From IMG/VR virus record IMGVR_UViG_3300033143_000944, positions 1 to 20,861 of that record: DNA of 20,861 bases. The stretch is one strand, 5' to 3'. Below are positions 1 through 20,861 of the stretch, piece after piece. A model generated the notes under the pieces. That model worked only from the letters and a program-made list of their open reading frames with translations, did not search any database and had not been told where the DNA came from. Source of the DNA: a virus. Made by a program: the position numbers and the translations under genes. The first letter of the stretch is position 1. Each line of letters opens with the position of its first letter.

Positions 1-138
1 GATAGAATTACAGCAACAGATGTGATTGATGCTAACCGTATGTTTTATGAGAGGGCTAATAACCTACATGATATAATGGGTAAGAACCTAACCAAAAGAT
101 TAGATGAGCAAATAATAAAAGCATTGAAGAGTAGCTAG
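1..138 (+). CDS. 3' end of a convergent plus-strand gene (partial, unknown)
   Basis: An open frame runs from the left edge to a TAG at 136-138 (45 codons, no internal stop). It encodes a hydrophilic, mostly helical tail starting DRITATDVIDANRMFYERAN and ending in IIKALKSS. It is the only supported plus-strand gene in the window. Its stop overlaps the terL stop by four bases (CTAG, 135-138), so the two units meet end to end. The N-terminal part is outside the window. From memory, the RITATDV start and the spacing of hydrophobic residues resemble part of the T7 portal protein gp8 (which has an ERVTAEEI segment), but identity is low, the gene would end well short of a T7 portal, and its strand would be opposite to all other head genes. 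I therefore treat function as unknown. An open frame of this length could also occur by chance. Confidence 0.55.
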   Translation, partial: DRITATDVIDANRMFYERANNLHDIMGKNLTKRLDEQIIKALKSS

Positions 139-1862
139 TAGGCATAGTCCTCATCAGAACTGAATGAGTCGAACTCATCAAAGATTCGGTTGTTGATAGC
201 TTGTATCTTCTCAAGCTCATCCTCAGCCCATCTATCTACACCAAACTCTTCATCCTGACTCATCTCATCTAAGAGATATGTAATACCATTAGCTAGAGCA
301 TCTAGCCTATCATCATGGTTTATTGAATTTCTCTCTTTAGTTATATGAGATAGTTGGAATGTAAAAGAATTTTTAGTAAGAGCTTGTTTATCTTTTACTA
401 AAGTATCTTTATCTATGATAAGTCTATGTTGGTTTAGTAGAGGCTCTAAAGTCTCTATGATTCTAATCTCTTTCTGACCACTAACATTGAACTCATCTAG
501 TCCAGTCTTAGGACTGATTCTCTTAAGGTGAGGTTCTAACATCTTAGTGAACATACCTCCACCCCAGTTTTCTTCTATGACAGCAACTTTGATTCCATGA
601 TGTAAACATAGATTAGATATGTTCTCCATGTTGTCATCTTCAAATCCACCTTGTAGACCAGTTATCTTCTTAATGAACAGTCTAGTATTCAGAGAGTAGA
701 TGATAGATAAACCTATCTCATCTTTACCTTTACCACTAGGGTCAATGGATAGTATCTTGTTATCATATTCACTTCTCTCTTCTGAAGTAAACAATGGAGA
801 GTATAGCTTATCAGCTTTGAATCCATTATGTTTAATATCATACAGCATATTATCTGGCATAGATGAGTAGCCTACTTTAAGTGGAGCATCTTCATCTGAT
901 ATGTCATCAACTATAAAGTCACTTAGCTTCAGTGGATGTTTAAGGTCATCAGCTTCTGATACATCACACATGTATTGTAGTTTAGCTTTAGACTTACCTA
1001 TCTTTAATGCTTTAGCTCTAAGGAACTCATCATTAAGTCTCTCATCTATTGGTTGCCCTACTGTTGCACCATTGTCTAATGCCTCTTGTATGAACGGAGC
1101 TAAGAAGCTCATGTAAACAGAAGTATCTTCTGGGTATCTAGCTGGACAAATGAAAGCATGAGTACCAGTGTCTAACCAGTTAAGGTACATAGAGTTTTGA
1201 GAGTGAGGAGTAGCAAGTGTTATTGATTCATCATGTCCTGACATCAAAAGGTTATGTGCTTCATCTACACCATGTTGTGTTCTCTCTATTAGAGATGTTG
1301 ATTGTACTGTCATGTGAGTCTCAACATCATCTATGATTAGTATACTGGCTCTCATACCAGCAAGATTATTGTTAACACCACTAGCATATACAGATGGACT
1401 ATCTGAAGCAGTAGCACCAGCTACATCAAATGAAGCACTAGCTGTTCTCTCTATGTTATTACGAGGAGACATACTAGATGTGATTGGAAGTAATGCTATA
1501 AGCTTCTTAACGAACTGCGTATATGATTTGGCTCTATCAGAAGATTGAGATAATACTAGGACATGTTCATCTGGATTGTTTAGTAGTCTCCATACAACAT
1601 ATATCTGTGAAGTCATAGACTTAGATATACCACGTGGAGACCATACTAATCTATGAGCATTATCTCTGTTGGCTATATAGTTAGCTATCTCTAGTTGCAT
1701 TCTAGTTGGAGCTGGTAGGTTTAGGTAAGCGAAAGTATAGACGTAGAATACAAAGAAGTTATCCATAAGGTCTTCATCAGACCAGTACTTATCATCAGCT
1801 ATTACATTACCCCACTTCTCTCCTAGTGTTCTGCTATAGAAGTATTCTAAGTCAAGATTCAT
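135..1862 (-). CDS. terL: Terminase large subunit (T7 gp19-like DNA packaging ATPase/nuclease)
   Basis: This is the motor that pumps concatemeric DNA into the prohead through the portal and cuts it. At 575 residues it is close to T7 gp19 (about 586). The ATPase half shows a Walker A variant SPRGISKS at residues 75-82, of the T7 'RGxxKS' type, a Walker B ILIIDDVE at 174-181, and a motif III-like LATPHSQNS at 216-224. The RNase H-like nuclease half shows LSIDPSGKGKDE (Asp374), VAVIEENWGGG (Glu430) and HDDRLDAL (Asp517, Asp518, Asp521), the expected acidic metal-binding set. The tail is very acidic. The start is supported by an AGGAG about ten bases upstream, inside the end of terS, and the two genes overlap by 11 bases (1852-1862), which suggests translational coupling. 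It is the last gene of the minus-strand late unit. Confidence 0.96.
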   Translation of the reverse strand: MNLDLEYFYSRTLGEKWGNVIADDKYWSDEDLMDNFFVFYVYTFAYLNLPAPTRMQLEIANYIANRDNAHRLVWSPRGISKSMTSQIYVVWRLLNNPDEHVLVLSQSSDRAKSYTQFVKKLIALLPITSSMSPRNNIERTASASFDVAGATASDSPSVYASGVNNNLAGMRASILIIDDVETHMTVQSTSLIERTQHGVDEAHNLLMSGHDESITLATPHSQNSMYLNWLDTGTHAFICPARYPEDTSVYMSFLAPFIQEALDNGATVGQPIDERLNDEFLRAKALKIGKSKAKLQYMCDVSEADDLKHPLKLSDFIVDDISDEDAPLKVGYSSMPDNMLYDIKHNGFKADKLYSPLFTSEERSEYDNKILSIDPSGKGKDEIGLSIIYSLNTRLFIKKITGLQGGFEDDNMENISNLCLHHGIKVAVIEENWGGGMFTKMLEPHLKRISPKTGLDEFNVSGQKEIRIIETLEPLLNQHRLIIDKDTLVKDKQALTKNSFTFQLSHITKERNSINHDDRLDALANGITYLLDEMSQDEEFGVDRWAEDELEKIQAINNRIFDEFDSFSSDEDYAY

Positions 1863-2073
1863 TCTTTCTTCTCTCCTCTGCTTCTTTTACTTTTGCCTTA
1901 ATGGTTTCTTCAAGAGAGGACTTCTCTTTATCTTGAACCATGTTGTTCTTAGCAAGGTAGTTGCTGAGTGTAGCTAGGTCAGCTAACTCCTCAGTGGTAT
2001 CTTCTTCCATGATTTTTATCATCTTGTTTAGGAGTAAGTCATCTAGCTTCTTTAGTTTTTCTTGTTTGTTCAT
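1852..2073 (-). CDS. terS: Terminase small subunit (T7 gp18-like)
   Basis: A 73-residue, highly charged, helical protein directly upstream of terL and overlapping it by 11 bases. TerS recognises phage DNA and regulates TerL. T7 gp18 is about 89 residues, so the length fits. The central segment ELADLATLSNYLAKNNM (residues 29-45) resembles the conserved part of T7-like small terminases, which usually ends in a 'FLKDNG'-type sequence. The N- and C-terminal thirds are rich in Lys and Glu and probably form helices. The ATG is preceded by AGTAGGG, which overlaps the stop codon of the gene before (TAG at 2079-2081), so translation is probably coupled. The call rests on size, position and the central motif rather than on catalytic residues. 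Confidence 0.83.
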   Translation of the reverse strand: MNKQEKLKKLDDLLLNKMIKIMEEDTTEELADLATLSNYLAKNNMVQDKEKSSLEETIKAKVKEAEERRKNES

Positions 2074-2078
2074 ATTCC

Positions 2079-5000
2079 CTACTTGTAATTATATATATTT
2101 ACTACTTCTTGAACATCAGCCATAGCTTTAGTTGGTGCTGGATTAAGTAATCCTACTGCTGTTCCATAAGCTCCAGCAAACGGGTGAGACAATAGTGCAT
2201 CAAGCATTATATCATCAGTTGTTGCATCTCTACCTTTAATCTCATTCCTAGCCATAGTAGCTAAAGCTCCTCCCCCAAACCACATAGCAGTCTGAGTCAT
2301 AGCCTTAGCATCTCCAGCCATCATTCCTCTACCTAAGAATGAACCTATGTTAGAGTAAGCACTCATTGGAAACTTAATAAGAACAGTTGCTACTACACCT
2401 AGTGCAGTCTGTCTACTATAAGCTCCAGTTGTACCCATAGTTGATTGCTGTATCTGCTTCTGCAACATAGCATCCATTGTAGTGTATAGGTCTGTTCTAT
2501 CTGTTCTTGATAGTTTGTTAATATCAAAGTATTGAACATGTCCTTTAGAGTTTAATGTAAAGTGTTTCTTTAGTATCTTCTCTACGTTATCATTGATTGC
2601 ATACGAAGCTAACTCATAGTCTTTAAACTTCTTAGCTCCAGACATATGGTTGTATAGCACTTGCATATTATCTTGCATGTTAACTTTAGTAAGGAAGTCA
2701 GAAGACTTTACAAATGGTAATGTATGTAGAGTTATATCTCTAGCTACTTCAGTAACCTTAGATAAAACATTCAATCCTCTCTCTCCTCCAGTGACCATTC
2801 CCATTTCATCTATAGATTTATATCCACCATAAGAAGCTCCATATTGGTGAGTACCTAATCCTAAACCTTTTTCTTCTGTTAAGGACTTCATCATAAAGCT
2901 ATCATCACCAAACTCGCTCAGTAGCTTACTGTTAGCCTGTTGTAGAACTCCTCTCCACCCAGACTTATTTAGCCTAGCAGCAGTAGTCAATACCTCTGGA
3001 GCTAGAGATAGAGTTGATAATCCCATCTTACTAGCCATAACAAGGTTTCCAACACTTCTCATTACCACATTGATAGTCTGACCATAGTCAATTACTGGAC
3101 TACCAGACAAAGCCATAACATCATTAATCATTGTCTTTATCTTATCTGGTTTAGCACCACTATTCATTATCTGTTCTACTACGTTATCAATAGATTTATA
3201 TCCCATGTCTGCAAATGCAACATGACCACTAGCTTTATTTAGATAGTCAGTCATGATATTCATTATGTCTTGTTCAAACATATCATCAATACCCATAGTT
3301 ACAGATTCAGAACCATCAACATAATCTATCTTCACACCCTTAAACATCTTCTTATCCATAGGTATTCTGTTCTTTAGTCTACCAAAGCTATCTCCACCAA
3401 CACCTAGAGCATCAGCTATATCATTAACAACATCATCACCAAACCCATGTTTGTCAGCTATCTTCTTAATATCATCTATAGAACTCATAGAGGCTTTACC
3501 TCCACCATTAGCTACATTGATGATAGCATCTATATAAACATCAGCTACCTTATCAGCATTCTTAGTCTTAGTTAACATCTTAGCAAACTCTGTAATGAAT
3601 GCAGCTTTAGATGATGGAGTAGCTCCAGCTAATGCACTTGCTATATTGCTTCTCTTCATGCTTCTAGGAACATAGTTCTTAAGAATGGTAGTCTTATCTA
3701 TATCTTTAATACCAGCTCCTACCATCTCTTCCATCATACTGTCTAGTATCTTATTAACTTGGGTTGCTCCATCTACTACAGACTTAACCTCTGAATGTGC
3801 TCCAGTCTCTATGTATTCAGTAATCATCTTATCATATTCGTATCTTTTGCTTGTAGATTTAAATAGACTTAATGCTCCTTCTACTCTGCTTGTACCAGCT
3901 TCTTTTAACCAACTAACATAAGTCTCTTGTATGTCTTTCTGTAAAGTATTCCAATGAGCATGATAGATTCTATTCTTGATTCTCTCTACACTCTTTTGAG
4001 TATCTATTGGATTAAAATATATATCATCTATTAGCTTATTGAGTTGCTCAGAAGCTCCTTTCTTTAATGGAGCTATAGTCTCTGTTATAGACGTTCTACT
4101 TGCTTCAGCTACCTTTGATATAGTTGCTCTAACTTTAACGGTCTTAGCCATAGCTACTGAGTTCTGAACAGTCTGTCCACCTTCAGCTATTAACTTGCCT
4201 ATATTCTTTGCATTAACCAATCCAGCTATTCCCAACACAGAAGCTAGTAGTATTAATCCATAGTCTTCTATCATGTCTGAACCATCATACCCGAATGCTG
4301 AAGTACCAATAAGTCCAGAGCCCAATACAAAACCTACCTTACCTACTTTCTTACCATTAATCTTAATGTCCATATCTTTGTTAGCACCATTAGGTTTAAC
4401 CTCAACATTTGGTTTAACATACTTCCCATCTTTGCCTTTCTTTACTGAGTCCTCAAGTTTACCCATAGCAGAATTACTAAGCTTACCTTCTTTATTTAGT
4501 CTCTTATACACAGAGAGTATTTCACCAGCAGTATCTATATCCCCTTTAGCTAGTGCTTCTAGGTCGTTCTTTATATAAGCTATGTTTAGCTCTATGTCAT
4601 CAGTTATAGATGTCATGTCTCTCTTTGTTTGGTTGATTAGCTGTAGCTCTTCATCCGATAGTTTAATCCCAGTCTTAGCTATTCTAGTCTTAACCATCTC
4701 ATCTAATAATCTGAATCCAGTTGACTTAGCTACAGTTAGCTTCTTCTTTAGTTGTGTTTTTAATTCATCTATTCTATCTAGTTCTTTAGCTGTAGTCTTT
4801 ATCTTTGACTTGGATAATACATCAGCTTGTTTCTCTACTTCATCTATCTGTTTTTGAAGTGTCTTTATCTCAGATGTTTTAGTTACTTTGGCATAAGATA
4901 TTTGTTCTCTCTTGCCTAAAGTCTTTGATACGTCTACTTCTAGTTTCTCTTGTCTTCTGATTAGCTCGTCTTGTTTGTTTCTCAGTGCAGTTATGGCTTC

Positions 5001-5810
5001 ATCATTTAATCCACCAACGGAAGCTTGAGATAGTTTGTTTATATCATTAGCATTTAACTTCTTAATTACAGAGTAATCTATTACACCAATCAGTGTACTC
5101 ATAAGCATAGCTTCACCCATAGATGTATCATCATCTACAGCACCTATAAACATACCATATCCAGCTTCAGAACCACCAGTAACCTTAGCTATAGTAGATG
5201 ATGTCTTGGCTGTCTTAGATATAGTCTTAGCAACGGTAGCACCAACTCCACCAATGATAATATCAACATCAGCTATAGCAGTAACTAAAGAAGCAGCCAT
5301 CTGTTCAGATTGAGTTAAAGCATTACGAATATCTTCACCTCTCTCTCTGTCTATAGTTTTCATCTCAGCTATATCAGTAGCATGTTCTAGGCTAACTGCT
5401 TCATCTAAATCATTAAGGTCATCTATTCCCATTCCATATTTAGACATGAACTCAAACTTAGCATCATCATCAAATGTGGCTTTCCACTCAGCATCCTCTT
5501 CTCTATACATAGCTCTATCGTACTTTAGATAATCATATCCTTTTGCCATCCATGTATCATCATAGCTATGAGAGAAAGCTTCCCACTTTCTACCTATCAC
5601 TGGTGTAAGGAAATTGTTCTCTGTTCTACCCCAACCAGTAACCGTAGCTTGAGCTACATTATTAAGAGTCTTCTCTGTATCTTCAAGAAACTGATTCTGT
5701 TGTCTAGCTATATCTGTAGCAGTTGTTATTGTCTTGTCGAAAGAGGGAGCAAGAGTAGGTGTATATGGTTTACTCTCTCCAGTTACCTTTGCTAGTTGTT
5801 CTTTACTCAT
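2079..5810 (-). CDS. Internal virion protein, T7 gp16-like (largest ejectosome protein)
   Basis: At 1243 residues this matches T7 gp16 (1318) in size and position: third of the three ejectosome genes and immediately before terS. In T7 the protein is stored in the capsid core and ejected first to help build a channel across the cell envelope. Here, residues about 270-420 are charged and helical, consistent with coiled coil. Hydrophobic Gly-rich segments lie near 490-506 and 516-534. The last 150 residues contain YSRQTALGVVATVLIKFPMS followed by an Ala/Gly/Met-rich stretch, much like the hydrophobic C-terminal regions of long T7-like internal proteins. I see no lytic transglycosylase motif in the N-terminal 200 residues, where T7 gp16 carries one. 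The start overlaps the previous stop as TAATG, with AAGGAG upstream. Confidence 0.83.
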   Translation of the reverse strand: MSKEQLAKVTGESKPYTPTLAPSFDKTITTATDIARQQNQFLEDTEKTLNNVAQATVTGWGRTENNFLTPVIGRKWEAFSHSYDDTWMAKGYDYLKYDRAMYREEDAEWKATFDDDAKFEFMSKYGMGIDDLNDLDEAVSLEHATDIAEMKTIDRERGEDIRNALTQSEQMAASLVTAIADVDIIIGGVGATVAKTISKTAKTSSTIAKVTGGSEAGYGMFIGAVDDDTSMGEAMLMSTLIGVIDYSVIKKLNANDINKLSQASVGGLNDEAITALRNKQDELIRRQEKLEVDVSKTLGKREQISYAKVTKTSEIKTLQKQIDEVEKQADVLSKSKIKTTAKELDRIDELKTQLKKKLTVAKSTGFRLLDEMVKTRIAKTGIKLSDEELQLINQTKRDMTSITDDIELNIAYIKNDLEALAKGDIDTAGEILSVYKRLNKEGKLSNSAMGKLEDSVKKGKDGKYVKPNVEVKPNGANKDMDIKINGKKVGKVGFVLGSGLIGTSAFGYDGSDMIEDYGLILLASVLGIAGLVNAKNIGKLIAEGGQTVQNSVAMAKTVKVRATISKVAEASRTSITETIAPLKKGASEQLNKLIDDIYFNPIDTQKSVERIKNRIYHAHWNTLQKDIQETYVSWLKEAGTSRVEGALSLFKSTSKRYEYDKMITEYIETGAHSEVKSVVDGATQVNKILDSMMEEMVGAGIKDIDKTTILKNYVPRSMKRSNIASALAGATPSSKAAFITEFAKMLTKTKNADKVADVYIDAIINVANGGGKASMSSIDDIKKIADKHGFGDDVVNDIADALGVGGDSFGRLKNRIPMDKKMFKGVKIDYVDGSESVTMGIDDMFEQDIMNIMTDYLNKASGHVAFADMGYKSIDNVVEQIMNSGAKPDKIKTMINDVMALSGSPVIDYGQTINVVMRSVGNLVMASKMGLSTLSLAPEVLTTAARLNKSGWRGVLQQANSKLLSEFGDDSFMMKSLTEEKGLGLGTHQYGASYGGYKSIDEMGMVTGGERGLNVLSKVTEVARDITLHTLPFVKSSDFLTKVNMQDNMQVLYNHMSGAKKFKDYELASYAINDNVEKILKKHFTLNSKGHVQYFDINKLSRTDRTDLYTTMDAMLQKQIQQSTMGTTGAYSRQTALGVVATVLIKFPMSAYSNIGSFLGRGMMAGDAKAMTQTAMWFGGGALATMARNEIKGRDATTDDIMLDALLSHPFAGAYGTAVGLLNPAPTKAMADVQEVVNIYNYK

Positions 5811-8002
5811 TATCTTAGCTCCTTAGGTAGTCTGTATTCTCTCCTACCAGTTCTTAGTTCTCTTGATGTATATATACTTGTCATTATAATGTTTCTCCCA
5901 CTATACACATTGATAGTAGTTAGCATCTCTCCATTAACATCTGGAACTTGTATTATATCTACATGGTCTTCATCTGACAAGTCTGATACATTTACATCAA
6001 CACCTTTAAGATGACTCAAGTCTGAACTTATTAATGTTTGCATATTACTTCTAACTTTATTCTTCATAGAAGTAGAGCTATTTGTAGTTGGATTAATAAA
6101 CGAGAAACTTGTACCTCCTACTGGAAGCCAACTATCATCTATCTCAATAGTCTTCTCCTTAGCAAATGTTATTAGTTCTTCTTTGGTTCTAATTGGTTTT
6201 CCGCCACTACTTTCAGCCATAGTTAACAGTGAGTTAAATACTCCATTCACCAGAGTCGTCTCACCCCATATACCACCAGCAACTAAATCATCAGTTACTA
6301 TATCTGCATCACTAAGAAACTTCTGAAGCCTACTACCTTCATTCTTAGAAGTCCATTCTTTAGCCATAGTCCATGTCTTCTGCTTTATCTTAGACAGGAT
6401 TATGTTCGGAGTTAATCTATCATCAGTCTCTGCTTTATCTTCAAGCTGAGTTCTATATGTTTCTATCTCCTTAACAGAGTTACTATTTATCCATGAAGAA
6501 TTATTGTTACCGTATGTCTTTAGATATGTATGGTTAAGATGAAGAGAGTTCAGTAGCTGAGTAGAGTTAGTAGCACCAGTATATCCACTCTTGTTAAACG
6601 AAACTATATTATCACTTATCATCTTAGTACCTTCACCAGCATATCCATCAGAGTGCATATTTCCTATGTTAACACCAAGAGTAGAAGATTGTTCCATCCC
6701 TTGATTGTTAATAGTAGCTCCTATCTCTTTAGCTATTCTATTATCTAAGTATGCTTTCTTCTCTGCTTTAGTTATCCTAGACGTAGCAGTAGTTATTGGA
6801 ATACCTTTTGCTACTAATCTCTCTTGAGATGTAACTACATGTTCTTCTGACATTACTTCAGAGTATGACTTATCCCCACTTATGATTTGGTTGTATGAAC
6901 TATTCAACATTTCTATTGTTTTAGTCTTAGTCAACATCTTGCTCACATGGTCTTTATCTGATGAGTAATCCTTATCAGGTTGAAGTGTCATAGCTTTAGA
7001 TAGATGACCTAGAGATTCATTTAATGTCTTAGTTGCTTCTGTTAATGTAGTTGTTTTAACATCCATCTTAGCATTAGACTCGTCTATTGTTAGAAGGAAT
7101 TTCTTAGCTTTAGTTACTCTACTTTTATTATAGTTATCTATCCATCCATTAAATGATTTCTTCATAGACTCCCATGATTCATCAGTTTGGTCAGCATATG
7201 TCTTGTTATATACACCATCTTTTCTTGTTCCAATTCTTCCATAGGTATCATTGAATAATCTATCAATACCTTCTTGGGTAAGTATTCCCTCTGTAGTATA
7301 TTGAGTTAATGATGTACTATCTACACCATCTTTAAACCTATCGGTAAACTCTGAGTTAAGACTATTAGCTGTTTGACTCCATACATAACTTTTAGAGTTA
7401 GCATATCCAGCAGTCTTCATTCTATCTGCTTTAGATATTACTTTCTCATATGTAGTTTCAGAACCTTCCATCTCTATCTCAGCATCAACCTCTTCTTTGG
7501 TTTGAATCTTGAATGCAGCAAATTGATTAGCACTATCATTGTCATCAACTTTCTTAAGCATCTCTGCTGATGGAGTTAAGAATCTATTTTTATATATATC
7601 ACTATCTTTATCTGCACTAGTAATACTTCCAGTAATAGAATCCTTATAGAAGTCCTTTTGCCATCTTCTCTTGTCTTTATAGTCCTGAACAGTAAGTACT
7701 CTTGGAGGATTAGCTTCATCTCCATCAACTATAGCTTTGTAATAATCATCAATAGATTTAAGACCATTAATGTAGTTTAAGTGAGCATCATCAGCTCTCT
7801 TCTCATCAGCCCATACACTAGCCTCATATACTGCACCAGATGTCTTAGCTGCACCCTCAGTTAATTGACCAAGACTCTCTAAGTCTTTCATTAATAGTTT
7901 TTCTTGTTGTGTGCTTACAGCTTGTGTAGCTTCGCCAGTAGCTCCTGTGAGTTGTACTCTTTCTGTTCTGCTACTCTTTGATAGTTCATCTAATGTTGGC
8001 AT
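5810..8002 (-). CDS. Internal virion protein, T7 gp15-like
   Basis: A 730-residue, hydrophilic, mostly helical protein, nearly the length of T7 gp15 (747), and placed between gp14-like and gp16-like genes exactly as in T7. In T7 this protein forms the periplasmic tube of the ejectosome together with gp16. No enzymatic motif, signal peptide or membrane segment is visible. Sequence is rich in Ser, Thr, Lys and Asp, with long stretches of alternating charged residues consistent with helical bundles. The identification is therefore from length, composition and gene order. The ATG is preceded by AAGGAT and lies 12 bases from the previous stop. Its own TAA overlaps the next ATG by one base (TAATG at 5808-5812), so gp15-like and gp16-like proteins are probably made by coupled translation. 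Confidence 0.78.
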   Translation of the reverse strand: MPTLDELSKSSRTERVQLTGATGEATQAVSTQQEKLLMKDLESLGQLTEGAAKTSGAVYEASVWADEKRADDAHLNYINGLKSIDDYYKAIVDGDEANPPRVLTVQDYKDKRRWQKDFYKDSITGSITSADKDSDIYKNRFLTPSAEMLKKVDDNDSANQFAAFKIQTKEEVDAEIEMEGSETTYEKVISKADRMKTAGYANSKSYVWSQTANSLNSEFTDRFKDGVDSTSLTQYTTEGILTQEGIDRLFNDTYGRIGTRKDGVYNKTYADQTDESWESMKKSFNGWIDNYNKSRVTKAKKFLLTIDESNAKMDVKTTTLTEATKTLNESLGHLSKAMTLQPDKDYSSDKDHVSKMLTKTKTIEMLNSSYNQIISGDKSYSEVMSEEHVVTSQERLVAKGIPITTATSRITKAEKKAYLDNRIAKEIGATINNQGMEQSSTLGVNIGNMHSDGYAGEGTKMISDNIVSFNKSGYTGATNSTQLLNSLHLNHTYLKTYGNNNSSWINSNSVKEIETYRTQLEDKAETDDRLTPNIILSKIKQKTWTMAKEWTSKNEGSRLQKFLSDADIVTDDLVAGGIWGETTLVNGVFNSLLTMAESSGGKPIRTKEELITFAKEKTIEIDDSWLPVGGTSFSFINPTTNSSTSMKNKVRSNMQTLISSDLSHLKGVDVNVSDLSDEDHVDIIQVPDVNGEMLTTINVYSGRNIIMTSIYTSRELRTGRREYRLPKELR

Positions 8003-10925: not shown

Positions 10926-10935
10926 TACTTATCCT

Positions 10936-11154: not shown

Positions 11155-11558
11155 TACTCTACACCAAACTTAGGGAGTACATCAATAAACTTCTCTACAC
11201 TCCATTTCTCAGTGATAGCAATAACTTGATTAGCTCTAGCTGTTCTCCATAATGCTATCTTGTATGCACATATCTTATTACAGAATGATTGATGTTCATA
11301 TTCTAAATCAAATGAGTAAGTAAAACAATTCTCTACACTCTCAAAGTTAACATCATTTACTTTATTGTAATTAGCTATATGACCATTGATTATACTCTTC
11401 ACTAAAGCTTCACCATCTTGGATTAGCTTAGTTAGATTCTCTGCATCAAATAGAACTTGCAATTCTGCTGGTACATTATCTGTATCATACTCTGTAAACC
11501 CATCCCTAGGCTTACTTCCTACACTATATCCATCTTCTGTTATTTTATAATAAGCCAT
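11154..11558 (-). CDS. Fibre-associated small protein, possible tail fibre assembly protein
   Basis: A 134-residue protein directly after the tail fibre gene, with its ATG overlapping the fibre TAA by one base and a strong AGGAGGT upstream. From about residue 68 it reads VNFESVENCFTYSFDLE, then a Cys-containing helix with YKIALWRTARANQ, and it ends EKFIDVLPKFGVE. This layout (an 'F.SI..A.TY' strand, a helix with a conserved Trp, and an ending like 'p..ee.i..LP.f') is common among small proteins encoded next to fibre genes in podoviruses and siphoviruses, several of which are annotated as fibre assembly chaperones. The role is inferred from position and pattern, since no catalytic motif is visible. 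It contains three cysteines (residues 78, 93 and 97). Confidence 0.5.
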   Translation of the reverse strand: MAYYKITEDGYSVGSKPRDGFTEYDTDNVPAELQVLFDAENLTKLIQDGEALVKSIINGHIANYNKVNDVNFESVENCFTYSFDLEYEHQSFCNKICAYKIALWRTARANQVIAITEKWSVEKFIDVLPKFGVE

Positions 11559-14500
11559 TAGCTTTTACCTCCTAAAATATTCATTGATACATCTTCCCAA
11601 TTGTCATATGTTGTGCCTGTACCACTTTGTGAAGTTATTATCTTATAGCTACCAACTTGCTTATCGTAAGTACTTACAGTACCTAATGCAGTATCTGTTC
11701 TTTTGCCACCATAAGAATCTGAATAGTTTACATTATCCATATCTACTGTGAAATAAATAGTATATTTACCCGTAGCTGTCCTAACCACATCATTCACATT
11801 AAAGCTATCTCTAATAGTAGGAGGTGTAGTTGTACCATCAAAGTTTACCCAAGCAGTACAAGCATTTTTACCTATAAACTCACCTTGTGTCTCTATGTCG
11901 TCAGTAGCTATTATTTTGTTGAAGTAACTCTGTAATGGCTCATACTCTACTAAGTCAAAAGCATTACCTTGTGTATCTACTTTACATTCACCTAGTGCTA
12001 CTAAGTCTGTAGAGTATGTGTTATATATATCTGCTGCTCTAGTCACTGCTGTTGTAGTTGTAGGTATGTATGAAGTAGCTGATGATTGTTCTTCTAGTTG
12101 AGCACCCCAAATATAAAATATGTTACTTGAATTATTTGAGAATAATCTAACTTGTATTCCATCATTATTTGAGGCTAATGTTATGGTTGCACTAAGTCTC
12201 TGCCCCTCCCCTGTCATTACATCAGTCACAACTATATTTACTAAATCTCCAGTACCGAATCTCTTCACATTTATTGAAACTTCTTCACCTAAATCAGTTA
12301 CTTTACAGGCTGTCTGTGTACCATCTAATGCCATTTCTTCTGCTGTGTCTTGGGTGATTGTTATTGCTCCGTTCTTATCCCAAGTAGCATTACTAAAGTC
12401 TTGGCTATATAAACATATATTCTCACTACCGCTCTCAATCAACAAGTCACCATCTTCAAATCTAGCCTCATCTATCTCAGCATACTTAAGTACACCACCA
12501 TCAACATAGGTAGCAGTACTTGCTCTTGATTGAAAGTTCTGAACATCAACAGTTTTAGTTAAAGTATTAAGGAAAGCTCCTGATATAGTACCTCTCTCTT
12601 GAGCATACATAATCTTGTTATGGCTTGTTCTAGCATCACTTCCTCTCTCTTTAAGTATATAAGCTGTATCTCCTGCAAAGGCACTCAAATCAACTGTATG
12701 AGCTGATGTAGTCTCTTGTAGGTTAGTAAGTCCTATACCTTGTGTGTAAGTCAAGTCTATACCACTGTTGACTGTGATTTCACTTCCGCCTGTTGGTTGG
12801 TTGTATTTAGGTGAGTATGCTTGGATTAGGTATAAGCCACCTGAAGCATTGATTTCTCCAGCAGTATCATCTACTATTATTCCTGTTGTTGTAAATGTAA
12901 TTAAAGGGTCTATATTAAATGTTTCAGCTGTACTTGTATTAGGAAATATTCTATTTATATCACCCCTTACGTTATCAACAACAGCCCAATTAGTAGCACT
13001 ATTAAGTCTTTTATACATCACATAACTACCATCTACAGTCATATCTAAACCAAAGTCTACTACATTACCTACTGCACCTGTACCTGTGTATGCACCTATG
13101 TAGTGGTTATCTGAGTCTGCTTGTCCGTAAGTTATGTATTGCTCACCGTTTGAGTTACCTGTTGCCCCTGAGCCTACTGTAAAGTTATCCTCAGTTGGCT
13201 CTGTATCATTCCATACTGTTGTTTCAGAAGCAGAAGCACCAGTAGTTTCTAGTTTCATATACTCGGTAGCTCCACTGATTTTATTATATACTAACCAGCT
13301 TTTTGCTGTTGTTGTAAGTTGCTTTCTAGTAATAGTACCTAATAGATTTTGAAGCATATGTGGCTTAGTTGTACCAGCTACACCATTACCCTCATCCATC
13401 AGTATAAAGAAACCTGTTGTTGGGTGATAGTGGATTATACAAGGATTACCTGCACTATCAGTAGCCATTAAGTCAGTACCAGTATTGTTCTTACTATTCT
13501 GCATATCACCAGCATCAGTACGATACCCTGCTGTCTTTCTAGTTGTTTGGTCTACCCATACTACATAGTCTTTTGCATTGTCATTAACTACAGCATCATT
13601 GTCTACACTTATACTTAATGGATTAAAAGATGTTGTAGTTCCAGAACTTTCTGATTCTGTATTTGTAAGGTTGGTATATATTTGATGACCTTCACCTCTT
13701 ATAGAATCTGCTACTAAGTTATGCCCTGTTGCATCTCTATTCTTAAACCAAAATCTACCACCATACTGATTAGTTTCTAGTACCCAATTAGCATTTGTTC
13801 TAGGTGATACTGTATTAGTAGTATCTGTTTGAGTTAGTCTGTAAGCTAGTGCATCACCATCAGTTGAGTTGTCTATGTAAATATCATCTACATCATAAGA
13901 CTGTCCTGTTACCCAATCTTCAGCTAGTGTAGTACCATCACCATTATCATTAGCTATCTGTAGAGGTGATACTTCTTTTACTGAGACATTATCTATAGTA
14001 CAAGTTGTACCATCCCCAAATTCATTAATAGCTATATATGTTGAACTCCCTCCGATAAACTGAAATGCTACAGTCTTTGTAGAAGCTATACCTGTCTCAC
14101 TACCTAAATCATTCTGCCCTTTGCTTGTGCCAACTAGTACAGACACACTACCAGTTGTAGAAATTATATCTATTGTCAGTAAGTACAAAGTACCATCGAT
14201 AGCACCTGAGATAAGTTGAGAAGCTCCAAATGTAGAATCTCCACCAGTTCCAGTAATAACCAACTCTCCACCAGAAACATTTAAGATACCTCCACTATTT
14301 GATATCCACCCAGTAGTATCAGTATCAAATGTTCCGTTAGTAACTTCTTCGCTACCAATAGCTCCACCATGAACAGGAACATCTTTACTTATACCGTTAC
14401 CTGTATAGAGTACAGGAATTGAGCCTGTTACTTCTTCTGTAGGTAGGGCTAAAACACCTGATGTGATTAAGCCATTAGATATCACTGATGTAGCAGAGAT

Positions 14501-15136
14501 GTTCTCTGTTGATATAGACTGAGCAGATAAGTCAGCAGCAATAGCAGAAGCAGCAGCAGCAGTAGCATAATCAGAAGCCAATAGTATCTCAGTAAGATTA
14601 GCATAGATAGCATCAAGTCCTACCTTGTCAGCATAGATAGAATCTAGTGTAGCTTTATCAGCATACAATGAGTCCAGAGTAGCTTTATCAGCGAACAAAC
14701 TATCTAACGTAGCCTTGTCTGCAAATAAACTATCAAGAGTAGCCTTATCAGCATATAGACTGTCTAACGTAGCCTTATCAGCGTAGAGTGAATCAAGAGT
14801 AACCTTATCAGCAAACAATGAATCAAGTGCTACCTTGTCAGCGAATAGACTATCTAGTGTTGTCTTGTCAGCATACAATGAATCCAACGTAACTAGTTCG
14901 TCAGCATTGTCCACAACTCTAATCTCAATCTGGCTATACACTAATCCGCTAATAGCTGAGACTAGTTTGATTGTATTGTCTTGTAAATCAAAGTCTGCTA
15001 CTGGTAAGTTATCCCAAGTATCATCATCTATCCTCTTCATAAGAACACCACAATGTTGTTTGTTTGCTATATATTTAGTCTGTGTGTAGTTTACACTAAC
15101 ACCATCAACTCCATAAAATGTTTGTTGTATGCTCAT
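11558..15136 (-). CDS. Large modular tail fibre protein
   Basis: A 1192-residue fibre, twice the length of T7 gp17. Residues 1-80 resemble the gp17 N-terminal domain that docks to the tail, including the YGVDGVSVNYTQTKYI start. Residues 83-182 are ten decapeptide repeats (TLDSLFADKA type), then an Ala-rich helix to about 205. Residues 262-390 look like a carbohydrate-binding jelly roll (NGTFDTDTTGW ... TIDNVSVKEV). Three related domains follow at about 455-530, 590-675 and 698-778 (for example SWLVYNKISGATEYMKLETT). Residues 905-1036 contain LYSQDFSNATWDKN and QLEEQSSATSYIPTTT, a common fibre lectin-like module. The last 100 residues (CTAWVNFDGTTTPPTIRDSF) form a tip domain typical of marine phages. 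It recognises the host surface. The start overlaps the TTPB stop (ATGA), with AGGAG upstream. Confidence 0.87.
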   Translation of the reverse strand: MSIQQTFYGVDGVSVNYTQTKYIANKQHCGVLMKRIDDDTWDNLPVADFDLQDNTIKLVSAISGLVYSQIEIRVVDNADELVTLDSLYADKTTLDSLFADKVALDSLFADKVTLDSLYADKATLDSLYADKATLDSLFADKATLDSLFADKATLDSLYADKATLDSIYADKVGLDAIYANLTEILLASDYATAAAASAIAADLSAQSISTENISATSVISNGLITSGVLALPTEEVTGSIPVLYTGNGISKDVPVHGGAIGSEEVTNGTFDTDTTGWISNSGGILNVSGGELVITGTGGDSTFGASQLISGAIDGTLYLLTIDIISTTGSVSVLVGTSKGQNDLGSETGIASTKTVAFQFIGGSSTYIAINEFGDGTTCTIDNVSVKEVSPLQIANDNGDGTTLAEDWVTGQSYDVDDIYIDNSTDGDALAYRLTQTDTTNTVSPRTNANWVLETNQYGGRFWFKNRDATGHNLVADSIRGEGHQIYTNLTNTESESSGTTTSFNPLSISVDNDAVVNDNAKDYVVWVDQTTRKTAGYRTDAGDMQNSKNNTGTDLMATDSAGNPCIIHYHPTTGFFILMDEGNGVAGTTKPHMLQNLLGTITRKQLTTTAKSWLVYNKISGATEYMKLETTGASASETTVWNDTEPTEDNFTVGSGATGNSNGEQYITYGQADSDNHYIGAYTGTGAVGNVVDFGLDMTVDGSYVMYKRLNSATNWAVVDNVRGDINRIFPNTSTAETFNIDPLITFTTTGIIVDDTAGEINASGGLYLIQAYSPKYNQPTGGSEITVNSGIDLTYTQGIGLTNLQETTSAHTVDLSAFAGDTAYILKERGSDARTSHNKIMYAQERGTISGAFLNTLTKTVDVQNFQSRASTATYVDGGVLKYAEIDEARFEDGDLLIESGSENICLYSQDFSNATWDKNGAITITQDTAEEMALDGTQTACKVTDLGEEVSINVKRFGTGDLVNIVVTDVMTGEGQRLSATITLASNNDGIQVRLFSNNSSNIFYIWGAQLEEQSSATSYIPTTTTAVTRAADIYNTYSTDLVALGECKVDTQGNAFDLVEYEPLQSYFNKIIATDDIETQGEFIGKNACTAWVNFDGTTTPPTIRDSFNVNDVVRTATGKYTIYFTVDMDNVNYSDSYGGKRTDTALGTVSTYDKQVGSYKIITSQSGTGTTYDNWEDVSMNILGGKS
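14591..14890 (-). repeat. Ten tandem 30-bp units encoding a decapeptide repeat in the tail fibre
   Basis: Residues 83-182 of the fibre consist of ten consecutive ten-residue units with consensus T-L-D-S-L-(F/Y)-A-D-K-(A/V/T). The first nine are nearly invariant and the tenth (GLDAIYANLT) is degenerate. At DNA level the units are clearly related but differ at many third codon positions, so the protein is conserved more strongly than the DNA. The regular hydrophobic positions suggest a rod-like trimeric shaft linking the docking domain to the adhesive domains. Confidence 0.93.
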
Positions 15137-18100
15137 ATCCTCGTACTCCTCTTGTTATAGTTGCCCTCTAATGATATAGAGTTAATTCTGAATCCACTAG
15201 AGTCAAGACTCTTTATGTTTAATCTAATGTTCTTACTATTACCATATATCATTGGTTTTCTACCAACAGTATATTCACCTTTAATTATTCTAGTTGTATC
15301 TCTAGCTATATCGTTTACTTCTAAGTAGAATGAACTACCAGCTTCTGAGTTTATCTGAGCAGTCTTGAATGCAAGATGACCTCTAGTTAAACTATCTCCA
15401 CCACTCTTAAGAACCCACTCTCCTAAACCAACATCAACTGGAATCAATGAGCCAATATCTTTAGTATTATACACTATATCCCAATCAGTAAAAGTCCAAT
15501 TAGTTAATTCAAAAGCAAATGTACCATTAAATAAAACATTACTATCTGGGGTATCTACAAATGAAGCCTTAAATCCACCTAGGATTTGACCATCAACATC
15601 ATTCTCTGTATAAGATATAGAAGTTATTTCTTCTGCTGCATTCAGTGGTATATTTATACCATTAGTATCTGATGTATATGTATCAAGGTTTGTAACAACC
15701 TCTAAGCCATAGTCAGTTGACGAAGTCAATGCTTCAATTCTTATATCAGAAGTTATCTTCTGTTCAGTTGCCAAGGAAACAACAGATGATGTAGCAGTAG
15801 ACACTATATGGTTCATATCTTCAGTATCATCAACTAGCTCACTAGCATCAACGAAGTATCCATTATAGTCTTGTGGATGTATAGCTTGAACTTCAAAGTT
15901 ATCAGTTGAAACTAAATCCTCTGGAGAACTATACCATATTCCACTACTAACCCATAGCTTATCACTATCCCATATACCATCACCTAGTACCCAGTCAGTA
16001 ACTGCTGATGCTTGGTTTCTGTTGATAAGTATGTTAAGGTTTTTACCTAAGCTAAATGCTCCATATATATCACCATTGTAAGTCCATCTAAACCATGCTG
16101 CTTGAACTCTCTCTTTACCACTATCAAGAAACTTATACACATAGAGTGTATCTCTCTCTGTTCTGTTTGATAAGAATAACATATTATTTATAGAGCTTCC
16201 AGATAGTCTAGTAACATCTGCTGGTATATAACTTTCAATATGACTAGATATATCCATAGCTTCACTTACTCTGCCATTACCATCTACGAAGTACTGCATT
16301 ACTGCTGTATAGTTTCCTCTCTTAGCACAAAAGAAAACCTTATCATTCATAAAGATAGGTCTAACATTCTTGTTCATTTCATATGCTGATGTTTGACTTA
16401 TCTGAACAGACTTAGGACTTAAGATGTTACCACCCTCTAGTTTAAACTGAGCCTTATCAGAGAATAACATCAGACTATCTTCTAAGTATGTAGAATACTC
16501 TAACTGTATAGCTTTAGTTGTATCTACTGTAGTATCAATTCTATCACTATCCAATAGAGTAGCAACAGTAGTTCTAAAGAAGTTACCATACTGTCCTACC
16601 TCAGACATGATTACTGTTCTCTCTGTTATAAATCCAAGTCTATTCTTAAAGAAGAATATATCTTTAATAGAAGGACTAGCTACAGTATCTGACTTAACAA
16701 AGCTAGGAGTTGGATTAGTTAAATCATCACCAACCTTCTTGCTATCCCATCCATCATAAGCCTTAAGAGTAAACGTATCGTCTGAGTTACGAACCAATAT
16801 ATGTGGCATAGTATCAGCAAGTATGTTTGGCTTAGTATCATTACTCATACTCTCAGTCCATCTACCAGACTTATATATCAGCCAGAATGTAGTCTCAGCA
16901 TTATCTCTTGAACCAGTTACCGCAACTAGACTTCCTTCAAACCCTAAGTTCTTAGGTAAATCTCCAGATGCCTGTACTGACTTAGCCCAACCAAAACTAG
17001 CTTGACCACCAAAACTATCATTAGTCTGACATGACTCCATATCTGCTGAATCAGCTGTAATCTCTATAACTGAACCAACAGCAATAGCTGAGAAGTTAGC
17101 ATCAGCATCTATAGCAGAAGCTAAAGCAGTAGCTGCTCCATCTGTAGTAGTGCTTGATGTGCTTACACTCTTAGTGTTTCCATCAACATCCTTAACAGTA
17201 GCATAGTATGTATATGCACTAGATGGATTAGAAGCTTTAACCCAGATGAATCCTTGTTTCAGATATATACTAGGAGGAGTATATACTGTCTCAATCTGGT
17301 CTGAGTATGTTATACCACTATAGTAATTAGCTTCAGTAGATGCTTGGCTTAAAGTATATCCATCTCCAGTAGACAATGTTTGCATAGATATACTAAACGT
17401 TACTGCAACTGTGTTACCATCAGTTCTCTTAATATTAATATCCAAGCCATTATTAGATGTAAATACTGAATATGTCTTAGCTGGTAAAGCAGCTGTTATC
17501 TTATTGACTAAGTCCAACTTCCAACTAGCATACGTATAAGTAGCATACACTGGTATTCGTGGAGCATCTTGGTCAATATATCCATATTGATTTAATGGAT
17601 AGTCATACCTAACAATCTTATCATGGTTAAACGGAGTCATCTTTATCGTAATACCATCAACTATAATAGTAGTTGTTGACCCACCATAGTGATAACTTAT
17701 CCCACTTTTATTAGTAGACCAATCGTATGTTATTTTCTTATATTGATTAGTAGGTGAATATGACGTTCTTGCTCCACCAACAGTGAAGTCAACTGGCTGT
17801 ATTAAGTTAATAGCAGCATAGTAAACAGAGATATCATCAGTAGTACCTTCTTCAGTATCCCCTATAGTAAAGTTATCCATCTCTGGTATAGCAGTCTTAT
17901 TAGATATAAACGTAGTATCCTTAATAGTAGTTGCACTATATCCATTCAGCCCAGCAAAAGGGAATAGATACTCTTCAGCACTACCTTCATAGCTAAGTCC
18001 TGAACCATCTTTATACACACTGCCATTAACTACATCTATAATCTCTAAACCATTATCATTTATATTTACAGAATACTTCTCTTCATTATCACCAGACAAT

Positions 18101-18315
18101 CCTCTATCATACTCATATGTGAACATATCTTCTTGGTACGTAATAGTATTACTAAGCTCTAGCTTCTCTGTTGGGTTTCTCTTCAATAAACCATTGTTCA
18201 CAGTAGGATAAGCATTAACAGAAGACTCTACCTGAGTCTCTAGTCTATGCTCGGCACTCTGTTGGTTCACACCATTGTAAAGTGATTGCTTATGATTCTC
18301 TACTAGCTTACCCAT
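15133..18315 (-). CDS. Tail tubular protein B (T7 gp12-like nozzle protein)
   Basis: A 1060-residue protein that should form the hexameric tail nozzle below the gp11-like ring. The N-terminal signature is present: YNGVNQQSAEHRLETQVESS (residues 13-32) followed by VNAYPTVNNGLLKRNPTE, equivalent to the 'GVSQQP..RLPGQ...N.YPS...GL.RRPPT' start of the family. The C terminus ends ISLEGNYNKRSTRI, matching the conserved 'EG.Y..RSRR' ending. T7 gp12 has 794 residues, so about 270 are extra. Part of the surplus lies in a repeat-like beta region (about 360-470) and part before the C terminus (about 925-1030, containing NVLFNGTFAFELTNWTFTDW), which looks like an inserted carbohydrate-binding-type jelly roll. 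It starts two bases after tail tubular protein A and overlaps the fibre start by four bases. Confidence 0.92.
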   Translation of the reverse strand: MGKLVENHKQSLYNGVNQQSAEHRLETQVESSVNAYPTVNNGLLKRNPTEKLELSNTITYQEDMFTYEYDRGLSGDNEEKYSVNINDNGLEIIDVVNGSVYKDGSGLSYEGSAEEYLFPFAGLNGYSATTIKDTTFISNKTAIPEMDNFTIGDTEEGTTDDISVYYAAINLIQPVDFTVGGARTSYSPTNQYKKITYDWSTNKSGISYHYGGSTTTIIVDGITIKMTPFNHDKIVRYDYPLNQYGYIDQDAPRIPVYATYTYASWKLDLVNKITAALPAKTYSVFTSNNGLDINIKRTDGNTVAVTFSISMQTLSTGDGYTLSQASTEANYYSGITYSDQIETVYTPPSIYLKQGFIWVKASNPSSAYTYYATVKDVDGNTKSVSTSSTTTDGAATALASAIDADANFSAIAVGSVIEITADSADMESCQTNDSFGGQASFGWAKSVQASGDLPKNLGFEGSLVAVTGSRDNAETTFWLIYKSGRWTESMSNDTKPNILADTMPHILVRNSDDTFTLKAYDGWDSKKVGDDLTNPTPSFVKSDTVASPSIKDIFFFKNRLGFITERTVIMSEVGQYGNFFRTTVATLLDSDRIDTTVDTTKAIQLEYSTYLEDSLMLFSDKAQFKLEGGNILSPKSVQISQTSAYEMNKNVRPIFMNDKVFFCAKRGNYTAVMQYFVDGNGRVSEAMDISSHIESYIPADVTRLSGSSINNMLFLSNRTERDTLYVYKFLDSGKERVQAAWFRWTYNGDIYGAFSLGKNLNILINRNQASAVTDWVLGDGIWDSDKLWVSSGIWYSSPEDLVSTDNFEVQAIHPQDYNGYFVDASELVDDTEDMNHIVSTATSSVVSLATEQKITSDIRIEALTSSTDYGLEVVTNLDTYTSDTNGINIPLNAAEEITSISYTENDVDGQILGGFKASFVDTPDSNVLFNGTFAFELTNWTFTDWDIVYNTKDIGSLIPVDVGLGEWVLKSGGDSLTRGHLAFKTAQINSEAGSSFYLEVNDIARDTTRIIKGEYTVGRKPMIYGNSKNIRLNIKSLDSSGFRINSISLEGNYNKRSTRI

Positions 18316-18317
18316 TG

Positions 18318-18899
18318 TTAGCCTCTATTAATATCATGTGATGGACTTAGCATATTAGCATTAGACGTATCTGCTTCGCTTCTTCTAGCTTCCATATAAG
18401 CATCTCTCTCATCTTCCTGTGTGAATCCATGTTGTGTTGCATCAGCTCCAAGTGTTCTATCTCTAAATCTCTTAGCTGCTTTAAGTGTAATGTATTGTCT
18501 GATACCTTGTGGTAAATCATTGAAAGCTAAATCCCATATAACCTTAACAGTTTGTGGTTCTTCAAATCTAGTAGACTGAGCTTTCTTACTATACAAGAAA
18601 TGACTTCTAATTATAAGATTACTATCACTAGATGAGATTCTTAGTATGTTAGATGGTATAGCTATGTATCCACTAATGTCTGGAACTAAAGTAAAATTCT
18701 CATCAGTGTTAACATCCCACTCACTATCTAGCACTTCTCTTTTAACTTGAATCAAATCCTTTCTAGCTCTTACAGCTTCAAGTACATCATCAATATCATC
18801 ATCAGTTTCTAGGTCATCTTCACCTATAGTATTTAGCATAGTGTTTACAGCACCAAGCAACATCTTTGTCGGGTCATCATTAAATTCATTGAAAGCCAT
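18318..18899 (-). CDS. Tail tubular protein A (T7 gp11-like adaptor)
   Basis: A 193-residue protein, almost the same length as T7 gp11 (196), which forms the dodecameric ring between portal and nozzle. The N-terminal region (MLLGAVNTMLNTIGEDDLET and the following acidic helix with RARKDLIQVKREV) matches the family pattern of 'N..L..IGE.P' followed by a helix that packs against the portal. The middle has the typical NFTLVPDISGYIAIPSNIL strand pair, and the C-terminal region has LPQGIRQYITLKAAKRFRDR, the conserved helix of the family. The start is set by AAGGAG five bases upstream. It precedes tail tubular protein B by two bases. Confidence 0.93.
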   Translation of the reverse strand: MAFNEFNDDPTKMLLGAVNTMLNTIGEDDLETDDDIDDVLEAVRARKDLIQVKREVLDSEWDVNTDENFTLVPDISGYIAIPSNILRISSSDSNLIIRSHFLYSKKAQSTRFEEPQTVKVIWDLAFNDLPQGIRQYITLKAAKRFRDRTLGADATQHGFTQEDERDAYMEARRSEADTSNANMLSPSHDINRG

Positions 18900-18914
18900 G
18901 TAAACTCCTTAATG

Positions 18915-18950: not shown

Positions 18951-18963
18951 GATAAAAAGTCTG

Positions 18964-19908
18964 TTATGAAAGTATAACGTTCTGCAAAGCAGTTGATGTT
19001 ACACTGTCACAATTTCCACCAATATTAAAAGCTTCACCAACTATCATATCAACAACTAAAGTTGTATCATCATAGCTCATGTAGTCTGCTGTTACAGCAA
19101 GTGTATCAGCTATTGGTTCTAAACTAATATAGTCAGCAGTCACATCTAGTCCGTTAGCTACAGCAACATCATTGCTAGTGTAGGTAGCAGTTACAGCTAA
19201 AGTATCAAGCGGAGCTGTTCCAAACGTAACCACACCAGTAGCTAGTACAACTGTATACTCTGTTGAAGATACTTTAACACCATCAACAAAGACTGTTAAG
19301 CCAGAATCACCAGCTGGATAAACTGTTTGACTAGCACCACTAAGTAATGGTATGTTGTTACAAGTAAAGTCAACCTCTATACCATCACCAGTACCTATAT
19401 CATCATCTGTATGAGTAGTTTCAACTAGGTCAAAAGTTACTACACCAGTAGCTAATACAACAGAGTAACCAGTCTTAGGATACTCTACAGCATCAACATA
19501 AACAGTTAAGTCTTCATCACTAAGTAATGGAGTATTATTACAAGTAAACTCATCTTCAGTACCATCACCAGTACCCAGTGCATCAGCAGTATTATCAGTT
19601 GGGACTGTATCAATAGTAACAACACCAGTAGACAATACTACACTATGATATTCTTTGTCAAGTTCTTCACCATCAACATAAACAACTAATTCATCAGCGC
19701 TAACCAATGGAGTGTTGTTACAAGTAAACTCAGTCTTTGCTCCATTACCAGTACCTATAGCATCAGCAGCATATCTGGTTGGTACAGCATCATAGTTAAA
19801 AGTGACTTCACCAGCATCAATAGCTCTGATTTGCTTTTTAACTCCGAGGGGAGTAGCCGAAGCTACCCCGATGAAACTACCAGCATTTATTTCAAATAGA
19901 CAGCTCAT
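18964..19908 (-). CDS. Repeat-containing beta-rich protein, candidate head decoration protein
   Basis: A 314-residue acidic protein between the major capsid gene and tail tubular protein A. I chose ATG at 19908 over the adjacent GTG at 19911, because AAGGGG at 19915-19920 is six bases from the ATG and only three from the GTG. After a 45-residue leader come three tandem repeats of 60, 60 and 70 residues, each with the pattern GTGDG...FTCNN.PLLS...L.VYVD......Y.VVLATGVVTF. The third carries a ten-residue insertion. The rest has three short copies of a (T/G)L(A/D)VTA(D/T)Y strand. Each repeat keeps one cysteine in FTCNN. The fold is probably a string of small beta sandwiches. Position suggests a head decoration, head fibre or capsid accessory protein. 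I do not recognise a named family, and a non-virion role cannot be excluded. Confidence 0.7.
   Translation of the reverse strand: MSCLFEINAGSFIGVASATPLGVKKQIRAIDAGEVTFNYDAVPTRYAADAIGTGNGAKTEFTCNNTPLVSADELVVYVDGEELDKEYHSVVLSTGVVTIDTVPTDNTADALGTGDGTEDEFTCNNTPLLSDEDLTVYVDAVEYPKTGYSVVLATGVVTFDLVETTHTDDDIGTGDGIEVDFTCNNIPLLSGASQTVYPAGDSGLTVFVDGVKVSSTEYTVVLATGVVTFGTAPLDTLAVTATYTSNDVAVANGLDVTADYISLEPIADTLAVTADYMSYDDTTLVVDMIVGEAFNIGGNCDSVTSTALQNVILS
19207..19776 (-). repeat. Three tandem 180-210 bp repeats within the decoration-like gene
   Basis: Units at 19597-19776, 19417-19596 and 19207-19416 encode 60, 60 and 70 residues. Conserved elements in each are GTG(N/D)G, FTCNN followed by PL(L/V)S, (V/T)(Y/F)VD and VVL(A/S)TGVVT. 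The third unit has an extra ten residues (ASQTVYPAGD). DNA identity is visible in the segments coding for FTCNN and for VVLATGVVT, consistent with duplication followed by divergence. Confidence 0.9.
19841..19869 (-). promoter_or_regulatory. UUCG-tetraloop hairpin with an overlapping alternative stem
   Basis: In the minus-strand RNA, GGGGTAGC-TTCG-GCTACTCCCC (19848-19869) forms an eight-pair stem with one bulged base and a C(UUCG)G loop, the exceptionally stable tetraloop. A second stem, ACTCC-CCTC-GGAGT (19841-19854), uses part of the same bases, so the two are mutually exclusive. Both lie inside codons 13-23 of the decoration-like gene, about 50 bases after the capsid stop. No U tract follows, so simple termination is not supported. 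Stabilisation of the capsid message or control of downstream expression is possible. Confidence 0.45.
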
Positions 19909-19914
19909 CACTTA

Positions 19915-19920
19915 CCCCTT
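19915..19920 (-). promoter_or_regulatory. Ribosome binding site that decides the 19908 start
   Basis: AAGGGG overlaps the last two bases of the capsid TAA stop and is six bases from ATG (19908), three from GTG (19911). An in-frame TAA lies directly before the GTG, so no earlier start and no frameshift fusion with the capsid protein is possible. Confidence 0.7.
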
Positions 19921-20845
19921 ATACGTTTTTAAGTGCAGCAGCAGATTGACAACGTAATGCAGCCATACCATTTGAGAAGTAAGACTGGATACGTTTAGCA
20001 TCTAGGAAGTCATCATCATCAATGATTTTAGTTTTTAAATCCCATAGGATAGCTGCACCAGCTGCTTCCATACCATACACTAAACCAATAATACCAGCAG
20101 TTGTTGTCATGTTGTTAGTTTGAATAATCTTAACACCACCAACTTCATAAGCAACACCTGAATCAAAACCACCGTTACCGTTAGTCCAATCAGTATTTAC
20201 CGCTCTATCAGACTGAACTACATAAGAATAGTTAGTAGGAGAAAGTGCAACATAAAGCTCACCGAAATCGTCATTAGAACGAATTGCAGCAGCAGCAGCA
20301 TAGATTGATTCAGCAATAGCATTACCATGTGCAGCAGCAGTAGAACCAGCAGCAACTCCGCCTGGAAGTGCAGTATTAACTACAACTGTACCATCACCAT
20401 TTCCAACTAAACCAGTAGTAGTAGTAGCTGCTTCAATAGCTGCAACTGCTTTACGGTCAATAGCATTTAGCATTTTAGACTCAATTTGTCTACCTTGCAT
20501 TTCCATAACACCCCAGTTAGTAACTGCTTCATCCCAACCATCAACTCTACGAGCTGTGTATTGTGGTCTGTCAAAGTTAATAACAATCTCATCTTGAGTA
20601 CCATCAGAAACATTAATCTGTGTACCAGCTGTTGCATAAGATGCTACATCAGTATCATCAATATCTTCTTTGCCTTCGATAATATAACGAAGTCCAGTAC
20701 CACCAGTACCTGATTGTTGATAAATAGTATTAAAGATTACTGTAGGTCTTTTTAAAGCCTCTAGTACTCCAGCATGAATGTCTCTTGTAAGTGTGTCTGT
20801 TGTGTCTGAACCCACTAATGGGTCTGTAGCTCCTGTGAAAGCCAT
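19919..20845 (-). CDS. Major capsid protein (T7 gp10-like, HK97 fold)
   Basis: A 308-residue protein (T7 gp10A has 345). Recognisable elements: an N-terminal region with TRDIHAGVLEALKRPTVIFN (N-arm), a strand pair with IVINFDRPQYTARRVDGWDE, a long helix with GRQIESKMLNAIDRKAVAAI (the spine-helix-like region), GELYVALSPTNYSYVVQSDR (equivalent to the 'V.SP..Y..LVQ.....N.D' motif in T7-like capsids), AYEVGGVKIIQTNNM (the 'V.GF.I..TN..P' motif) and an ending FSNGMAALRCQSAAAL typical of the family. Codons differ from neighbouring genes, with more GGT and AAC, as often seen in the most highly expressed phage gene. AAAGGA precedes the ATG. The scaffold and portal genes should lie just outside the right edge. 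Confidence 0.92.
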   Translation of the reverse strand: MAFTGATDPLVGSDTTDTLTRDIHAGVLEALKRPTVIFNTIYQQSGTGGTGLRYIIEGKEDIDDTDVASYATAGTQINVSDGTQDEIVINFDRPQYTARRVDGWDEAVTNWGVMEMQGRQIESKMLNAIDRKAVAAIEAATTTTGLVGNGDGTVVVNTALPGGVAAGSTAAAHGNAIAESIYAAAAAIRSNDDFGELYVALSPTNYSYVVQSDRAVNTDWTNGNGGFDSGVAYEVGGVKIIQTNNMTTTAGIIGLVYGMEAAGAAILWDLKTKIIDDDDFLDAKRIQSYFSNGMAALRCQSAAALKNV

Positions 20846-20861
20846 AATATATCCTTTGCTC

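Follow-up and report, generated by a model that had tools for sequence, protein, structure and literature searches.

The window analysed here is 20,861 bases long and makes up an entire IMG/VR record. It has no known ends and was treated as a fragment. It contains 16 genes, all on the minus strand, which together make up 20,559 coding bases. T7-type head, tail tubular, internal virion and terminase genes were all recognised by their PHROG matches (Table 1), and on this gene content we assign the window as the late-gene module of an uncultured T7-like podovirus. The protein at the gp15 position has homologues at the equivalent position in three related records (G004, G009 and G010). The terminase is 78% identical to that of another related record, G001, and the major head protein shares 88-91% identity with those of G002, G003 and G004, which hold 0, 0 and 1 GATC sites, respectively. 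Tandem units, each some nine residues long ('LDSLYADKx', about positions 14,600-14,910, minus strand), are found near the N-terminus of the fibre protein, and the fibre of G004 has similar ones. The nearest named phage is Podophage Lau218, with 37-38% identity in the terminase and 29% in the head protein; judged by these sequences, the lineage is close to no named phage.

Table 1. Annotated features of the window, and the methylase gene of the related record G028
Record	Positions	Strand	Feature	Basis or remark
Window	135..1862	-	terminase large subunit, 575 aa	phrog_38, E 2e-68
Window	2079..5810	-	internal virion protein, gp16-like, 1243 aa	phrog_342, E 2e-49
Window	5810..8002	-	internal virion protein, gp15 position, 730 aa	named from its position; no PHROG match
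Window	8015..8656	-	internal virion protein, 213 aa	phrog_805, E 3e-05
Window	9752..10159	-	endolysin, 135 aa	phrog_894, E 2e-23
Window	11558..15136	-	tail fibre protein, 1192 aa	phrog_19943/24898/5939
Window	15133..18315	-	tail tubular protein B-like, 1060 aa	phrog_457, E 2e-131
Window	18318..18899	-	tail tubular protein A-like, 193 aa	phrog_446, E 5e-41
Window	18964..19911	-	virion structural protein, 315 aa	phrog_11431, E 2e-14; GTG start in ORF list
Window	19919..20845	-	major head protein, 308 aa	phrog_267, E 4e-22
G028	10584-11096		predicted phage-type Dam methylase	PF05869; NPPY motif in translation; adjoins replication helicase

The window (GC 36.2%, no N) does not contain a single GATC on either strand, the site being a palindrome. 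Base composition alone predicts 66.9 copies, and a maximal-order Markov model built from trinucleotides predicts 75.8. We also permuted synonymous codons within the window's own genes, a procedure that preserves both protein and codon usage; 500 such shuffles gave a mean of 49.1 GATC (sd 5.3) and never fewer than 36. The site thus lies far under expectation with composition and codon usage allowed for, which is what we call avoidance, and the zero count claimed in the original prediction from the letters alone is borne out against both the Markov model and the codon shuffle. The same holds for the contrast it drew with similar words: CTAG is common (106 copies, near expectation), and GATA, GATG and GATT are abundant (93, 64 and 93 copies). 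GTAC, at 72 copies, is also near expectation, and CATC and TATC are common as well.

The further claim that the loss is specific to GATC needs slight correction. Among palindromes, only GATC shows a clear deficit that reaches zero; GGCC and CCGG have no copies either, a weak observation since only about 4 of each are expected, and AATT is low (52 versus 87 in the Markov model; in coding sequence only, 49 versus 118 ± 8 in the codon shuffle). TCGA is low too, with 5 copies versus 30 in the codon shuffle and 11 in the Markov model, for which the scarcity of CpG partly accounts.

The codons of the window genes reveal how the site was lost. Aspartate was encoded by GAC in 21 of 21 cases in which the next base was C, whereas elsewhere GAC accounted for 97 and GAT for 434 of 531 aspartate codons. 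Serine following a codon that ends in GA was always encoded by AGY (16/16). The isoleucine codon ATC was never used after a codon ending in G (0/84), as against 66 of 388 elsewhere. The loss of GATC in the window was made by silent substitutions acting at codon junctions.

Searches with terminase, head and tail genes gathered 28 related viral records. Scoring GATC as eliminated where the observed number fell below a tenth of expectation, we found it eliminated in 25 of the 29 lineage records, with a total of 92 sites observed versus 2,059 expected in 579 kb; the question raised by the original prediction, whether related phages share the absence, is thus answered in the affirmative. Seven of the records are 41-45 kb long, and five of these have exact end repeats of 75-127 bases. 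Their counts (observed/expected) are 0/190 in G008, 0/154 in G009, 1/151 in G004, 0/142 in G023, 0/131 in G024, 0/117 in G016 and 1/153 in G022. The lone sites that survive in the purged 42-kb records lie at position 40477 of G004 and position 15223 of G022. Another long record (G078), found via its helicase, has a terminase match of 54%, a 99-base end repeat and 1 GATC versus 173 expected. GATC levels vary widely among more distant relatives that were found through tail proteins. Among phages sharing only the replication helicase, GATC was eliminated in 3 of 77, versus 26 of 30 for the lineage (Fisher p 2e-17, a value that is too optimistic given the relatedness within each set). The loss therefore tracks the lineage of T7-like phages, or else their hosts, rather than the replication gene that is shared.

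T7-type RNA polymerase (PF00940) was found in Lau218 and in none of the nine long records (G004, G008, G009, G016, G022, G023, G024, G028 and G078). Because of this, and because the window holds late genes only, we file the phage as T7-like and not as a member of the Autographiviridae. The same nine records combine head, tail and packaging genes of the T7-like kind with replication modules that, judged by eye, include helicase, DNA polymerase, primase and other genes. In a read-through of the long relatives' ORFs we noticed no integrase, and the phage is lytic-looking. tRNA genes were absent from 26 stretches of lineage records.

Several relatives have lost other palindromes in addition to GATC (counts again observed/expected). 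G078 contains neither GGCC (0/57) nor CCGG (0/57) while keeping GCGC (82/103), and G008 has lost CCGG (0/22) and most of its GCGC (3/54) while keeping GGCC (39/40). CATG is lost in G019 (0/51) and also in G006, G020 and G026, ACGT is lost in G027, and CCWGG is eliminated in six of seven eligible lineage records. No palindrome besides GATC has been lost so widely across the lineage; the pattern of the others is phage-specific. These losses resemble traces left by a shifting repertoire of type II enzymes, and a cause targeting GATC alone would not readily account for them.

Four of the lineage records hold GATC in larger numbers: G005 (42/38), G025 (15/28), G028 (24/114) and G019 (8/47). A fragment found later, G029, also does (28/55). 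G005, G025, G019 and G029 are fragments, and a methylase may lie outside the part that is covered. G028 is nested in a group of six in the terminase tree (some inner supports are modest), the other five of which are without GATC. Where its GATC sites align to G009 (11 sites), G010 (14) and G024 (11), every one of them reads otherwise in the relative. G028 is also the only one of the 29 lineage records with a match to the Dam methylase family PF05869 (E 2e-24, above the Pfam cut-off). The product shares 50-59% identity with Dam proteins from phages of staphylococci and lactococci, and its score of 80.8 bits is below the NCBIfam equivalog cut-off of 97.05. The Dam of the lactococcal 936-type phage Phi93 methylates GATC and protects from DpnII but not from DpnI (PMC4190342). 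The G028 protein, whose activity is known from sequence only, shares the NPPY motif with it, and by analogy is predicted to methylate GATC. Gain of this gene would then be the cause of the return of GATC in G028. Within the lineage the association amounts to one event (one record with Dam versus seven long records without; exact p 0.125). In contigs outside the lineage that carry a Dam homologue, GATC was eliminated in 0 of 39, which is not significantly different from the 3/77 background. One of the other contigs, L079, has both a Dam and GATC (12/24); we did not count it as a second regain, its link to the lineage consisting of ribonucleotide reductase genes only.

Two further records pair other methylases with little or no GATC. 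G015 encodes a D12 adenine methylase, 42% identical to one from Lau218, and a C5-methylase-like protein (10695-11597 and 13598-14221), yet its GATC count is 0/60 and its GANTC count 9/39. Similarly, G026 encodes a C5 methylase, yet has 1 GATC versus 21 expected. The methylases of these two phages may target sites other than GATC. The window had no match to PF05869, PF00145 or PF01555, and G004, the nearest long relative, had none to these families or to PF02086. The N4/N6 methylase family PF01555 was found in none of the 29 lineage records.

We consider it probable that GATC is absent because host type II systems cleaving the unmethylated site have selected against it over a long time, and that this selection is relaxed when a phage methylates its own DNA. 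The lineage would have been exposed for long to hosts with enzymes of the MboI/DpnII/Sau3AI kind. Phages keeping GATC would be cut on entry, so that each site would come to be replaced, mostly by a silent change, and in a phage without a GATC methylase new sites would be purged by selection. In a member that gained a phage-type Dam, as G028 may have done, the DNA would be masked, selection would relax and GATC would re-accumulate. Both the host enzyme and its sensitivity to methylation are what we infer here. The original prediction had proposed a GATC-targeting host system and a phage that does not protect itself by methylation, and this is the reading best supported by a loss that is lineage-wide and silent, by the loss of other palindromes and by the partial reversal that accompanies Dam. 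Its grouping of Sau3AI and MboI with DpnI was too loose.

The site could instead have been lost in evasion of methyl-directed mismatch repair, in which MutH nicks GATC that is unmethylated, or of other processes linked to Dam; such avoidance has been proposed for phages of enterobacteria. Escherichia phage T7 (Autographiviridae), which has a similar late gene module, itself contains 6 GATC versus 141 expected, and phiX174 has been described as devoid of GATC in that connection (PMC5014478). Acquisition of a phage Dam would relieve such a pressure as well. This explanation, however, leaves the co-elimination of GGCC, CCGG, GCGC, CATG and CCWGG in the relatives unexplained. MutH is, to our knowledge, restricted to some Gammaproteobacteria, a group to which the host is not known to belong. 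We therefore regard this explanation as unlikely.

A nuclease of the DpnI type (type IIM) cuts only methylated GATC, and under such an enzyme a phage that becomes methylated in Dam-positive hosts would lose its sites. Absence alone does not tell DpnI from MboI, and every one of the 46 phages with hosts encoding the type IIM enzyme showed a shortage of GATC (PMC6286503). G028 speaks against such a nuclease, at least for its own host, since a phage with a Dam and 24 GATC would be exposed to it by self-methylation. The loss of the other palindromes calls for ordinary type II enzymes too, and we judge a DpnI-type cause to be quite improbable.

In some marine bacteria phosphorothioation of GATC is coupled to restriction, and N6-methylation is reported to protect the site. 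A phosphorothioate-based host system (Dnd/Ssp-type), or another non-type-II system aimed at GATC, could therefore produce a similar pattern, but other palindromes have been lost in the lineage in a manner that fits a repertoire of type II enzymes, and avoidance has been found mainly for orthodox type II sites (PMC6286503), so that we hold such a system to be very unlikely. Finally, mutational bias, codon usage or chance can practically be dismissed for GATC. That the genome is AT-rich and CpG-poor accounts in part for how scarce GGCC, CCGG, GCGC and CGCG are in the window, but words nearly identical to GATC are abundant, codon choice shifts precisely where GATC would arise, the codon shuffle refutes such an origin, and G028, similar in composition, regains sites.

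Two scans of genome collections for the host, whose enzymes would exert the counter-selection that we favour, found none. No relative was found with a terminase profile in 85,000 genomes. A search with the replication helicase across genomes returned only Bacillaceae loci at about 50% identity; as the match is this distant and the gene recurs in many unrelated phages, we make no host call from it. An AAA ATPase search in phages and plasmids gave no close match. Host hints through the nearest named phages come mainly from Lau218, at 29-38% identity. Campylobacterota, a guess from the kinds of sites lost, were not adopted as hosts. We also rejected a phage-encoded nuclease that cuts the GATC of others as the cause; two families, DpnII-type and MutH/Sau3AI-type, were found in none of the 29 records.

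That lytic phages eliminate restriction sites is already established. Such elimination is complete or nearly so in about a tenth of viral genomes, mainly in non-temperate phages and for orthodox type II sites (Rusinov et al. 2018, PMC6286503). Staphylococcal phage K and its relatives have lost GATC, which has been described as avoidance of Sau3A restriction (PMC6532042). Phage K resembles the lineage described here in being a lytic phage that has lost this site; it differs in having a 140-kb genome and a known host and enzyme, whereas the present phages are T7-like, uncultured, 42-45 kb long and known only as sequences. In T7 six sites are left, whereas the loss in the window is complete, and other palindromes have been lost in the lineage too. 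Lau218 has a differing set of purged palindromes: the first 21.6 kb (L066) contain no CTAG (0/46) and no GTAC (0/38) but 22 GATC versus 47 expected. While the survey of viral genomes dealt with phages with known hosts, our data concern one uncultured lineage that includes a member regaining sites together with a methylase. What is new is the depth of the loss across this lineage and the partial, Dam-linked regain, which is a single event.

These phages thus provide a clean, large and phylogenetically deep case of a textbook anti-restriction strategy, within which G028 is a natural experiment on the trade-off between purging sites and masking them. Site counts could, in addition, predict the restriction enzymes of hosts that are not yet known. 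Tentatively, and with somewhat less than even confidence, we suggest that the lineage, which has been widely sampled, meets GATC restriction in nearly all of its hosts and that its members switch between purging sites and gaining a Dam, upon which the sites return. If this is true, the number of GATC sites would report both on the acquisition of methylases and on the defences of hosts, for phages that have never been cultured.
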